From Chloroflexota bacterium (lineage in GTDB: Bacteria > Chloroflexota > Limnocylindria > Limnocylindrales > CSP1-4): a stretch of DNA of 44,501 nt. The DNA is taken from NCBI GenBank assembly GCA_003158675.1, contig PMKN01000089.1, positions 746 to 45,246 of the forward strand. Direction: 5' to 3'. The number at the start of each line of letters is the position of its first letter. The stretch's first letter is position 1. The translations under genes were made by a program, and so were the position numbers. Positions 26,810 through 30,288 of the stretch are shown here, in pieces. The notes beneath the pieces are model-generated. The model was not told where the DNA came from. It saw only the letters and a list, made by a program, of their open reading frames with translations, and made no database searches.

Positions 26810-27610
26810 CTACTCCGCCGAGCGGCTGAAGGAGCGAGCCCCCAGGGCGATGGTCGCGAAGGCGAGGACAAACAGCAGGACCAATCCGACCACGATCTCA
26901 CTGTCGCCGTAGTTGGCGTTGAACAGAGCCCGGATGGCCGACACGGCATGGAAGAGGGGGTTGAACTTCGCCACGGTCTGGAGCCAGTCCGGCGCCAGCG
27001 ACATCGGCAGCATCACCCCCGACAGCAGCAGCAGCGGCAGAGCCAGGCCGTTTACCACCGGCGCGAGCGAGTCCTCGCTCTTGAGCACCAGCGCGAGGGT
27101 GTACGACACGGGCGCCATCATCAAGCCGATCACCGCGAGCATCGCGAACGCGACCGCCACGCCGCCGAGGTTGATTTCGAGCCCGAACGGTATCGCCAGC
27201 ACGACCAGGATCAAGCCCTGGCCGAGCAGGAGGACGACGTCGCGCAGGGATCGGCCGACGAGCATGGCCACGCGGCTCATCGGCGTGACGGTCATTCGTT
27301 CGACGACGCCCTCGCGCATCTCGTCGCACAGGCCAAATCCCACGAATGCCGAGCCGAAGAGAGCGGTCATGACCAGCAACCCGGGCACGAAGACGTTGAA
27401 TGCGCCGCCGGGAGGAAAGCCCGGCATCCTGGCGATGTTCGTCAACAGCGGCCCGAATAGCAGCAGGTACAGGATGGGCTGCAGGATGCCCATGATGACC
27501 CACACGGGATTGCGCAGGCTCAGCGTGAGCGAGCGATCGAATATGAGCCAGGTGTCTCGAATGGTTCGCACTGCTTTCTCCCAGGCCGCCGCGTCCCCGC
27601 GGAGCGGCAT
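26810..27610 (-). CDS. ABC-2 type permease of a DrrAB-like exporter
   Basis: 266 residues, six predicted membrane helices (VWVIMGILQPILYLLLFGPLL; VPGLLVMTALFGSAFVGFGL; LLLGQGLILVVLAIPFGL; VAFAMLAVIGLMMAPVSYTLAL; LPLLLLSGVMLPMSL; VVGLVLLFVLAFATIALGA). LCDEMREGVVERMTVTPMSR is the cytoplasmic coupling loop typical of DrrB/NodJ permeases, and FNPLFHAVSAIRALF the late conserved segment. It begins four bases after the ATPase stop and forms one exporter with it. Substrate unknown: drugs or lipids by family. Confidence 0.93.
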   Translation of the reverse strand: MPLRGDAAAWEKAVRTIRDTWLIFDRSLTLSLRNPVWVIMGILQPILYLLLFGPLLTNIARMPGFPPGGAFNVFVPGLLVMTALFGSAFVGFGLCDEMREGVVERMTVTPMSRVAMLVGRSLRDVVLLLGQGLILVVLAIPFGLEINLGGVAVAFAMLAVIGLMMAPVSYTLALVLKSEDSLAPVVNGLALPLLLLSGVMLPMSLAPDWLQTVAKFNPLFHAVSAIRALFNANYGDSEIVVGLVLLFVLAFATIALGARSFSRSAE

Positions 27611-27614
27611 CGTG

Positions 27615-28583
27615 TCAGGCCGCGGTCTCGCGCAGCGAGCGACCGGTCTTCTTGAGGAACACGTCGTCGAGGCTGGGCCGGTGGAGGTCCATGGTCGAGG
27701 GCGCCAGGCCGTGGCCGTCGAGCAGTCGCAAAACGCTTGGCACGGCTTCCTCGCCCTTGTCCACGTACAGCCTCACGAGCCCGTCCTCGAGACCCGCCTC
27801 GCGAACGAACGGCTGGCCGGCCATCAGCTTCACGACCTGGTCGGCGTGGCCGTTGACACCGATCGTGATCACGTCGCCCGCGATTTCGCGCTTGAGTTCG
27901 GTCGGCGAACCTTCGGCGACTATCCGGCCGTGGTCGATGATGGCCAGACGATCGCACAGGGCGTCGGCCTCTTCGAGGTAATGCGTGGTGAGGAAGACGG
28001 TCGTGCCGCCGTCTCGGAGCTTGCGGATCTCGTCCCACATGCGCGCCCGAGCCTGGGGATCGAGACCCGTTGTCGGCTCGTCGAGGAAGAGCATCGCCGG
28101 GCGATGGACCATCCCGATGCCGATGTTGAGGCGCCGCCGCATGCCGCCCGAGTAGGTGCCACACGTGCGGTCCGCCGCGTCCGCAAGTTCGAGCGCGTCG
28201 AGTATCTCGACTGCTCGCTTTCCCGCATCCGCCTTCGACATGCCGAACAGGCGACCCTGGATGACCAGCTCCTCGCGGCCGGTGGCCTCGCGGTACGAAC
28301 CGCCGGCCTGGGCCACGTAGCCGATGCGCTTGCGGACTTCGTTGGGATGCTTGGCGACGTCGAAGCCGGCGACGCAGGCCGTTCCCGCGGTCGGCGGCAG
28401 TAGCGTCGCCAGGATCCGAAGAGTCGTCGTCTTGCCCGCCCCATTCGGCCCGAGGAAGCCGAAGATGTCACCGGCCTCGACGCGGAGATCGACGCCTGCG
28501 ACGGCCTCGACTTCGGCGCCCTTGCCCCGGCCCTTGAAGGTCCGGCGGAGTCCGGTCGTCTCGATGATCGGTTCGGGGCTCAT
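27615..28583 (-). CDS. ABC transporter ATP-binding protein, DrrA-like (daunorubicin-resistance family)
   Basis: 322 residues. Walker A GPNGAGKTT (45-53), Q-loop YVAQAGG, signature YSGGMRRRL (SGGM in place of SGGQ, usual for DrrA), Walker B MLFLDEP (164-170), D-loop GLDP, H-loop TTHYLEEAD. The C-terminal ~90 residues (VITIGVNGHADQVVKLMAG...SLDDVFLKKTGRSL) match the DrrA-type regulatory tail. AAGGAGG stands six bases before the ATG. First gene of the drrAB-like unit, divergent from the MarR-fusion gene across a 154-base region holding a perfect palindrome, so repression by that regulator is likely. Confidence 0.94.
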   Translation of the reverse strand: MSPEPIIETTGLRRTFKGRGKGAEVEAVAGVDLRVEAGDIFGFLGPNGAGKTTTLRILATLLPPTAGTACVAGFDVAKHPNEVRKRIGYVAQAGGSYREATGREELVIQGRLFGMSKADAGKRAVEILDALELADAADRTCGTYSGGMRRRLNIGIGMVHRPAMLFLDEPTTGLDPQARARMWDEIRKLRDGGTTVFLTTHYLEEADALCDRLAIIDHGRIVAEGSPTELKREIAGDVITIGVNGHADQVVKLMAGQPFVREAGLEDGLVRLYVDKGEEAVPSVLRLLDGHGLAPSTMDLHRPSLDDVFLKKTGRSLRETAA

Positions 28584-28669
28584 GCCCGGCCTCCTTGCGT
28601 ATAGGGTCCGGGTCGCAATCCCGATACCTCGATGTCACACTGAGTTGCTGTGAAGTCCATCTTTGTCCC

Positions 28670-28697
28670 TTGCCTTCGCGCCTCACTGCGCTATGAT
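28670..28697 (+). promoter_or_regulatory. Promoter of the MarR-fusion gene
   Basis: TTGCCT (28670-28675) and TATGAT (28692-28697), 16 bases apart, are a good sigma-70-type pair reading towards the regulator. The palindromic operator begins two bases after the -10 box, on the expected start of transcription. Confidence 0.6.
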
Positions 28698-28698
28698 C

Positions 28699-28717
28699 TC
28701 TCTGCGCAGCGCAGAGA
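28699..28717. promoter_or_regulatory. Perfect 19-bp palindrome, probable MarR operator
   Basis: TCTCTGCGCAGCGCAGAGA: nine-base arms around a central A with no mismatch, 20 bases before the regulator's ATG and 115 bases from the exporter ATPase start. Size and position fit a dimeric winged-helix repressor acting on its own promoter and perhaps on the divergent exporter. Confidence 0.75.
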
Positions 28718-28737
28718 ATAGCCAGGGAAGACGAAGC

Positions 28738-29868
28738 ATGTCAAGCGATGGATCGAGAGATGAGCTGGTGGCCGCGGTCCTGTTGGCAACGCGGAAGGTC
28801 GGCAGCCAGGCCGCTCTGTTCAGTCAGGCCGTCGCCGAACGCCTCGGGCTGGCGGGAACCGACGTCGAATGCCTGGACGTGCTCCTTGTGGAAGGGGGCC
28901 TAACGGTCGGCCGGCTGGCAGAGCTGACCGGACTGACCACGGGTTCGGCGACGCGAATGGTCGACCGGCTCGAGCAGGCCGGCTTCGTGAGGCGCGTCCC
29001 CGATCCGGCCGACCGGCGCCGGGTCATGGTCGAGCCGGTGGCCGGCCTCGAGGCCAAGCTCGGGGCCCTCCACGCGTCCATACGACGGACCCAGATCGAC
29101 GCCATCGGCCACTACAACGACGACCAACTCCGGCTCTTCCTCGAATACCTGGACAGCGCCGCCGCGATCCTTCTGGCCGAAGCGGTGAAGATGCGCGCCC
29201 CCAGTGAGGAGCCCGGCGCCGGGGGGAACTTCGCCGCGCGACTCGGCGGAGTGACCGCCGGTCACCTCGTCTTCGTCTCTGGCGCGCCGAACATCGTCTT
29301 GCGCGGCGAGGCCGGCCTCGAGGAGCTATATAAAGCCCATTTCGACGGACCGGTGCCGCGCATGCGCGTCCGCGACGGGGTGGTGACGGTCGCCTATACC
29401 CGCTTCAACTGGTTCGACTGGCGAGCCCAGATTGCCGATCAGAACGTCGAGCTGTCGGCGCACTGGCGAAAGGATCGCGGCGAGATCGCCCTCAACACGG
29501 CGGTGCCCTGGTCGGTAGAGCTTCGAGGCGGGGCGAGCCGGCTGAGCGCGTCATTGCGAAGCGTCCGCCTCGAGTCGTTCGAGATGCGCGGCGGAGCCAA
29601 CCGCGTCAACCTGGAGTTGCCGCAGCCTGTCGGCGTCGTACCGATCCGGATTACCGGCGGCATGAGTCGCCTGCAGATCACCCGGCCGTCGGGGGTCGCG
29701 GCCGGACTCCAGGTGCACGGCGGGATCGCCGAAGTCACGGTCGACGGCGAAACCTTCAAAGGCCGTGGCCAGATCTCGCTTCAGACTCCGGGCGCACCGG
29801 ACTCACTCAACCGATACGAGATCGAGGTCAATGGCGGCGTGGCCAAACTGTCCATCTCGACCTACTGA
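28738..29868 (+). CDS. MarR-family regulator fused to a LiaF/DUF4097-like beta-repeat domain
   Basis: 376 residues from ATG 28738. Residues ~1-150 are a MarR winged helix: LFSQAVAERLGLAGTDVECLDVL, the recognition part LTVGRLAELTGLTTGSATRMVDRLEQAGFVRR, wing PDPADRRRVMV, then a helical dimerisation segment. From ~160 on there is a second module: VTVAYTRFNWFDWRAQIADQNVELS, then turns rich in GGA/GGM (VELRGGASRLSASL, FEMRGGANRVNLEL, RITGGMSRLQITRP, VHGGIAEVTV, VNGGVAKLSIS), the rhythm of the LiaF C-terminal/DUF4097 single-stranded beta-helix. No membrane helix. The fusion suggests that the beta-helix senses a ligand (envelope stress or a drug) and controls DNA binding; that is inference. It is divergent from the exporter genes it probably controls. 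Confidence 0.88.
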   Translation: MSSDGSRDELVAAVLLATRKVGSQAALFSQAVAERLGLAGTDVECLDVLLVEGGLTVGRLAELTGLTTGSATRMVDRLEQAGFVRRVPDPADRRRVMVEPVAGLEAKLGALHASIRRTQIDAIGHYNDDQLRLFLEYLDSAAAILLAEAVKMRAPSEEPGAGGNFAARLGGVTAGHLVFVSGAPNIVLRGEAGLEELYKAHFDGPVPRMRVRDGVVTVAYTRFNWFDWRAQIADQNVELSAHWRKDRGEIALNTAVPWSVELRGGASRLSASLRSVRLESFEMRGGANRVNLELPQPVGVVPIRITGGMSRLQITRPSGVAAGLQVHGGIAEVTVDGETFKGRGQISLQTPGAPDSLNRYEIEVNGGVAKLSISTY

Positions 29869-29889: not shown

Positions 29890-30288
29890 CTACTCCCCTG
29901 CCCGCTTCTCGAAGTCAAGCGAGGCCGAGTTGACGCAGTATCGCAAGCCGGTCGGCTTGGGTCCGTCCTCGAAGAGGTGGCCGAGGTGGGCGCCGCAGTT
30001 GGCGCACCGGACTTCGGTCCGCTTCATGCCGAGGGTGTTGTCGGCGTGCGTCGTGACTTTCGACTTGTCGACTGCGTCGAAGAAGCTCGGCCAGCCGGAA
30101 TGGCTGTCGAACTTCTGGCTCGATTCGAAAAGCGTCTGACCGCATACCACGCACCGGTAGCTGCCGGTGTCGTGGTTGTCCCAGTAGGTGCCGGTGAACG
30201 GCCGCTCCGTGTCGGCCTCTTGAGTGACCGCGTACTGGAGTGGCGTCAAGCGCCGCTTCAGTTCCGCCTTGTCGGCCTGGGCCGTCAT
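29890..30288 (-). CDS. msrB: Peptide-methionine (R)-S-oxide reductase
   Basis: 132 residues, cytoplasmic. Repairs the R form of methionine sulfoxide. Zinc ligands are CVVC (46, 49) and CANC (95, 98); catalytic Cys118 lies in GLRYCVNSASL; substrate residues HSGWPSF and HLGHLFEDGP are intact. The position of the usual resolving cysteine (GCGWPSF in many homologues) is Ser/His (SHSGWPSF), so recycling must use another thiol or thioredoxin directly. Its ATG overlaps the stop of the upstream F420 oxidoreductase gene (ATGA), an unusual partnership. Partner msrA is about 10 kb away. Confidence 0.96.
   Translation of the reverse strand: MTAQADKAELKRRLTPLQYAVTQEADTERPFTGTYWDNHDTGSYRCVVCGQTLFESSQKFDSHSGWPSFFDAVDKSKVTTHADNTLGMKRTEVRCANCGAHLGHLFEDGPKPTGLRYCVNSASLDFEKRAGE

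Follow-up and report, generated by a model that had tools for sequence, protein, structure and literature searches.

A MarR-family regulator fused to a soluble Toastrack-type domain and facing DrrAB-like exporter genes in Chloroflexota

Results

Gene organisation and domain make-up

In the window, by which we mean the whole stretch of 44,501 nucleotides of Chloroflexota DNA that was analysed, a regulator of unusual length is placed head to head with the genes of an ABC-2 exporter. The coding features are as follows.

28738..29868, plus strand: MarR-Toastrack fusion regulator of 376 aa, with an ATG start and a frame intact to the stop
28738..29196, plus strand: complete MarR domain, aa 1-153, recognised by Pfam match and by the helices of the AlphaFold2 (AF2) model
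29197..29223, plus strand: flexible linker, aa 154-162, of low pLDDT in both AF2 models and of varying length in the alignment
29224..29865, plus strand: soluble Toastrack (DUF4097/LiaF-C type) beta-helix as predicted, aa 163-376, recognised by phmmer and Foldseek matches to 4qrk
27615..28583, minus strand: DrrA-like ABC ATPase, TIGR01188 344.6 bits against a cut-off of 312.45, divergent from the regulator and conserved as its neighbour
26810..27610, minus strand: ABC-2 permease (DrrB-like) directly downstream of drrA, Pfam ABC2_membrane E 1.9e-30
28580..28660, minus strand: conserved 26-codon ORF MDFTATQCDIEVSGLRPGPYTQGGRA in the drrA leader, whose stop codon overlaps the ATG of drrA

An upstream TTG at 28663 offers a possible longer start for the regulator; close relatives align from the ATG position instead. 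Residues 37-96 match both MarR_2 (PF12802; E 2e-14, 54 bits against a cut-off of 27) and MarR (PF01047; E 5e-14, 52.4 bits against a cut-off of 24.6) in Pfam, and the winged helix (aa 37-100) is the best-conserved part of the protein, with 42-91% identity between homologs and the window protein, compared with 32-74% for the whole MarR half and 32-67% for the Toastrack half.

The C-terminal half alone gave no significant match in Pfam or NCBIfam, and the window protein has no DUF4097, Toast_rack_N or LiaF-like_C match above the Pfam cut-off. With phmmer, however, this half matches PDB 4qrk (E 4.2e-6, over its residues 82-215), and in PMC11237479 4QRK is named as a Toastrack structure, Toastrack being the domain that unites DUF4097, DUF2154 and DUF2807, the LiaF C-terminus included. 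Membership was judged by the match to 4QRK, with the Pfam cut-off as a detection aid and not a defining trait; Pfam and NCBIfam alone miss the domain here and, taken by themselves, would have led to a false negative. The fusion protein showed no transmembrane segment.

Predicted structure

The mean pLDDT of the AF2 model rose from 76.9 with 11 homologs to 85.7 with 45. Its helices at 7-36, 104-123 and 128-153 complete, within aa 7-153, the full MarR helix set, and in MarR proteins the helices flanking the winged helix form the dimer interface. In the model built with 45 homologs residues 163-376 consist of strands throughout. Foldseek returned 4qrk as the top PDB match (E 5.9e-13, TM 0.79 by target length), followed mostly by MarR structures corresponding to the N-terminal half, and the C-terminal domain is accordingly modelled as a right-handed single-stranded beta-helix like that of 4QRK. 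The pTM of the model is only 0.56, so the mutual placing of the halves is of low confidence. Also of low confidence is an aromatic loop (WFDWRAQ; aa 220-243, 29395-29466), poorly modelled at 223-243, which is kept in the genus and near relatives and shortened in distant fusions; it is a possible site of contact with a ligand, a lipid or a partner.

By sequence and predicted fold it is thus confirmed that the protein joins a complete MarR regulator and a soluble Toastrack-type domain in one polypeptide. The preliminary description had claimed a MarR DNA-binding domain tied to a soluble, LiaF/DUF4097-like beta-repeat module, to be checked by domain search and structure prediction, and these claims have held: the MarR matches lie above the curated Pfam cut-offs, the module has the predicted fold, and nothing in the protein is membrane-spanning. 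The matches of phmmer and Foldseek to 4qrk rule out an unrelated C-terminal fold. A chance ORF or pseudo-domain is ruled out by conservation in 45 homologs from diverse genomes, and an assembly error or mis-joined genes by the same join in dozens of separate genomes.

Distribution of the fusion

A first scan of Chloroflexi MAGs brought up ten fusions of full length, with identities of 47-71%. Whole-genome searches of 177 genomes of the window's class yielded about 20 that are full-length, and many more turned up across the phylum in 400 sampled genomes, some large ones having several copies. From Chloroflexota 46 distinct fusion proteins were gathered, 45 of them full-length and one truncated at a contig end. 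Among 347 actinobacterial genomes, taken from the phylum of a Micromonosporaceae record, three contain full-length fusions (five proteins, two of the genomes having two copies each; E 1e-133 to 1e-150), and one further genome has a truncated copy. Another actinobacterial candidate (L011/L135), which by frame length resembled a fusion, proved to be an ordinary MarR preceded by an open frame. In searches run without a positive control, 299 genomes of Pseudomonadota and 148 genomes from the phylum of G523 (Thermodesulfobacteriota by label) yielded MarR-only matches or none, and no fusion; these two, Chloroflexota and the actinobacterial phylum were the phyla sampled.

A tree of the Toastrack core separates membrane types from soluble types (support 94/91). 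Gain and loss of the MarR-Toastrack join take five changes on the best tree, but a single origin is also conceivable; the TetR row described below was too long to place. The window's own genome has one protein only with a PF13349 match, on another contig (C15, L033). It is a membrane-type Toastrack protein and not a paralog of the fusion, and the ORF that follows it looks PspC-like by eye.

Control region

The regulator and drrA are separated by 154 bp, in and around which we distinguish three elements.

28699..28717, no strand: candidate operator, a perfect 19-bp dyad TCTCTGCGC-A-GCGCAGAGA, indicated by sequence symmetry and conservation in relatives
28670..28697, plus strand: promoter-like site of the regulator, TTGCCT-16-TATGAT, with its expected start point inside the dyad
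28715..28744, minus strand: drrA-facing promoter-like site, TTGACA-18-TATTCT, with its -10 overlapping the dyad edge

The dyad lies within the gap, and genus relatives have it, with small changes, between roughly -39 and -20 relative to the start, while its flanks vary. Allowing up to 3 mismatches, its pattern has one site in the window against 0.07 expected by chance. Throughout the genome, in a regulon search that used the dyad pattern only, there is one perfect copy, and the sole other site has 3 mismatches, the same as the reversed-pattern control.

Both promoter-like sites show conservation as well. Elements similar to the TTGC and TAT types of the regulator's site recur in most genus relatives; the drrA-facing -35 overlaps the regulator's start codon, and its complement reads GTCAA in 18/18 aligned sequences and TGTCAA in 17/18. 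For promoter-like sites flanking the dyad, 0.1 is expected by chance. Since the dyad lies between the two divergent sites, one bound dimer would cover the start region of both transcripts. Before distant fusions, dyads of MarR size (TATCTTAG..CTAAGATA type, e.g. TATCTTAGTCACTAAGATA) recur about 25-50 bp ahead of the start. Compared with shuffled sequence, the best dyad reached p < 0.05 in no more than 15 of the 35 upstream regions, which were of diverse origin.

Neighbouring genes

By sequence the window's exporter belongs to the daunorubicin-resistance type (DrrAB), with the ATPase above its family cut-off and the permease at 103 bits to TIGR01247 (drrB), below the cut-off of 223. Short peptides akin to the 26-codon ORF, with an FDI/CDI core, occur in the corresponding place at 7 of 10 loci, the window included, and the ORF is possibly a leader peptide or a small protein. 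On the other side of the fusion and convergent with it lies msrB (methionine sulfoxide reductase B; 29890-30288, minus strand), which has the same place in most genus relatives.

When loci were fetched uniformly with 1.5-kb flanks, DrrA/B-like genes were present at 27/37 fusion loci and 4/24 MarR-only loci; as the loci are phylogenetically related, this is to be taken as a contrast and not as a p-value. The DrrAB-like ABC-2 exporter genes beside the fusion are normally divergent from it. At other loci the divergent place is taken by an MFS exporter (L104, L127, L128, L159, L161), an EryCIII-like glycosyltransferase (L100, L103) or a beta-lactamase-family protein (L101, L111, L125). Three fusions (L095, L099, L105) have no recognised exporter or resistance gene beside them, nor has a fourth (L096), whose neighbour is an unrelated pantothenate kinase. 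The survey of relatives and neighbours that the preliminary description proposed as a check agrees with it, as relatives keep the fusion (45 full-length in Chloroflexota), and adds the divergent exporter genes as likely targets together with a likely operator.

A natural swap of the regulator was found in G002, a genome of the same genus (locus L053), where the gene opposite a drrA of 84% identity to that of the window encodes a Toastrack-free MarR, non-orthologous to the window's regulator (33% identity). Toastrack is therefore optional, not required, for regulation of this exporter.

TetR fusions and free-standing Toastracks

The same Toastrack is also joined to a TetR_N domain, in two proteins (L123, 4334-5608, minus strand, and L171) from genera g1 and g7 of the window's family. 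They are 49% identical to each other and both are divergent from drrA; because MarR and TetR are unrelated, this join happened separately. Unfused soluble Toastrack genes stand directly downstream of drrAB, inside the operon (L131, L132), or adjoin an MFS gene (L130, L133), and at L130 MFS, Toastrack and MarR genes form one string on one strand. The fused and the free arrangements make up the pattern expected if Toastrack works with the exporter and the regulator, whether fused or not.

Discussion

A putative input and a DNA-binding output are found in one polypeptide, an architecture that, as far as can be judged from sequence, fits one-component signal transduction. We propose, with a probability of roughly 0.65, that the fusion acts as a one-component repressor on both its own gene and the exporter operon, with Toastrack as the input. 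A MarR dimer would bind the 19-bp dyad, just downstream of the regulator's -10 and over the drrA -10, so that one dimer would block transcription in both directions. On meeting its signal Toastrack might, speculatively, cause a change in the MarR half, upon which repression would presumably be lifted and DrrAB made. As to this signal, the likeliest candidate, speculatively, is a surface of a protein or of the membrane that becomes accessible under envelope or drug stress, perhaps on the exporter; the alternative is the drug itself. Toastrack would then have a ligand or a partner, and the beta-helix would gate the MarR dimer, as the preliminary description had suggested; beyond the domain make-up, its claim of an envelope-stress sensor is thus conjectural, and the description as a whole is supported in part. 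MarR domains commonly bind ligands themselves, and for this reason Toastrack may modify rather than provide the sensing.

What kind of input the domain receives may be judged from its known relatives. According to published work on LiaX and LiaF the beta-strand C-terminal domain is a brake, probably acting through protein contacts, and the evidence on the Lia system favours a role of the Toastrack-type C-terminal domain as an inhibitory surface for protein docking over one as the direct sensor. In PMC11237479, likewise, it is proposed that sub-membrane complexes dock on Toastrack, whose occupation may act via fused or associated HTH domains. From these published docking and brake roles, a docking or membrane-linked input is slightly favoured over direct drug binding.

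Direct drug binding is the essence of the first alternative, in which Toastrack binds the exported drug or a lipid with neither a protein partner nor a membrane link. The divergent genes vary between ABC, MFS, glycosyltransferase and beta-lactamase-family types, so they provide no shared transporter partner, and all of them fit small-molecule resistance; the domain is soluble, and contact with ligand or lipid could be made by the aromatic loop, which the genus and its near relatives retain. We nevertheless see this explanation as possible but on the unlikely side, given the docking role just cited and the case of LiaX, where the antimicrobial is said to bind the N-terminal domain and not the Toastrack-type one.

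A second alternative places the input at the exporter: Toastrack would dock on its cytoplasmic side or bind its ATPase, and whether the MarR half is free to bind DNA would depend on the state of transport. The free Toastrack genes inside drrAB operons and beside MFS genes speak for such coupling, as do the two unrelated DNA-binding families that carry Toastrack beside drrA and, in other bacteria, the association of Toastrack with an ABC ATPase, a permease and an HTH factor reported in PMC11237479. Fusions that face glycosyltransferase or beta-lactamase-family genes, without a recognised divergent exporter, count against it, and we regard it as rather improbable. Least credible is a structural add-on serving stability or oligomer formation only, with all sensing left to the MarR half: this half is complete and has the usual dimer helices in the model, and in G002 the gene opposite the orthologous exporter encodes a MarR that lacks Toastrack, but in conservation the Toastrack half comes close to the whole MarR half, in two phyla, and its separate joining to TetR argues for a functional input.

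Keeping the one-component repressor as the preferred reading, we may tentatively extend it to an undescribed and widespread class of one-component switches for envelope or drug stress, in which a soluble Toastrack replaces the LiaF-LiaS-LiaR chain. The domain would bind to an exporter or to a partner in the membrane and act directly on the MarR or TetR repressor to which it is fused, and which sits over two divergent promoters. Lia and PSP partners (LiaF-TM, PspC, PspA, LiaRS) neither adjoin the fusion nor are fused to it, the neighbours being drrAB, msrB and others. With no such partner and no transmembrane segment, it is not classed as a Lia system, though it may work like one. The head-to-head exporter genes, seen in many bacteria of two phyla, suggest a single protein that both detects envelope or drug stress and turns export on.

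The signal of Toastrack has been unsettled, partly because the known ones sit in membrane complexes. A soluble Toastrack which comes with a DNA-binding domain and a candidate operator would make the state of the domain readable directly by a DNA-binding or reporter assay. Its repeated pairing with exporters, as MarR-fused, TetR-fused and free in the operon, links Toastrack in both phyla to the export of drugs; the fusions also offer a natural set of sensors for exported compounds.

Comparison with known systems

Regulators of exporters are well known in the MarR family, in the type of E. coli MarR, EmrR and MepR. The fusion shares with them the winged helix, the dimer-type helices, a promoter with a dyad of some 19 bp, here the candidate operator, and the adjoining exporter genes. 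In standard MarR proteins nothing follows the dimer helices, whereas here about 215 additional residues form a second domain.

With the Toastrack proteins (LiaF-C, LiaG, YvlB, LiaX-C and 4QRK) it shares the same beta-repeat fold, by sequence and predicted structure, and the known ones are likewise linked to drug or envelope-stress genes. Unlike them, the fusion has no transmembrane, SHOCT, PspC or HAAS part and no adjoining two-component system, and is attached to a MarR (or, in other cases, TetR) DNA-binding protein. In the LiaFSR-LiaX system of Enterococcus a C-terminal domain that is made of beta strands and belongs to the DUF4097 family (PF13349) brakes a stress response to membrane-active drugs; that system is multi-protein, membrane-bound and based on a histidine kinase, while the fusion is a single soluble protein.

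Similar in gene content are neighbourhoods described in PMC11237479, where Toastrack occurs with an ABC transporter and a GntR- or RHH-type regulator, or in HAAS-PadR systems. There, too, Toastrack shares its place with the genes of an ABC transporter and of a DNA-binding protein, but these Toastracks are described as membrane-anchored and separate from the regulator, whereas ours is soluble and joined to it. No description of a MarR- or TetR-Toastrack fusion was found in the papers searched, and the main text of PMC11237479 mentions neither MarR nor TetR. HTH-coupled Toastracks in general were predicted in that 2024 work, and the MarR-Toastrack fusion is a new architecture made of known parts.
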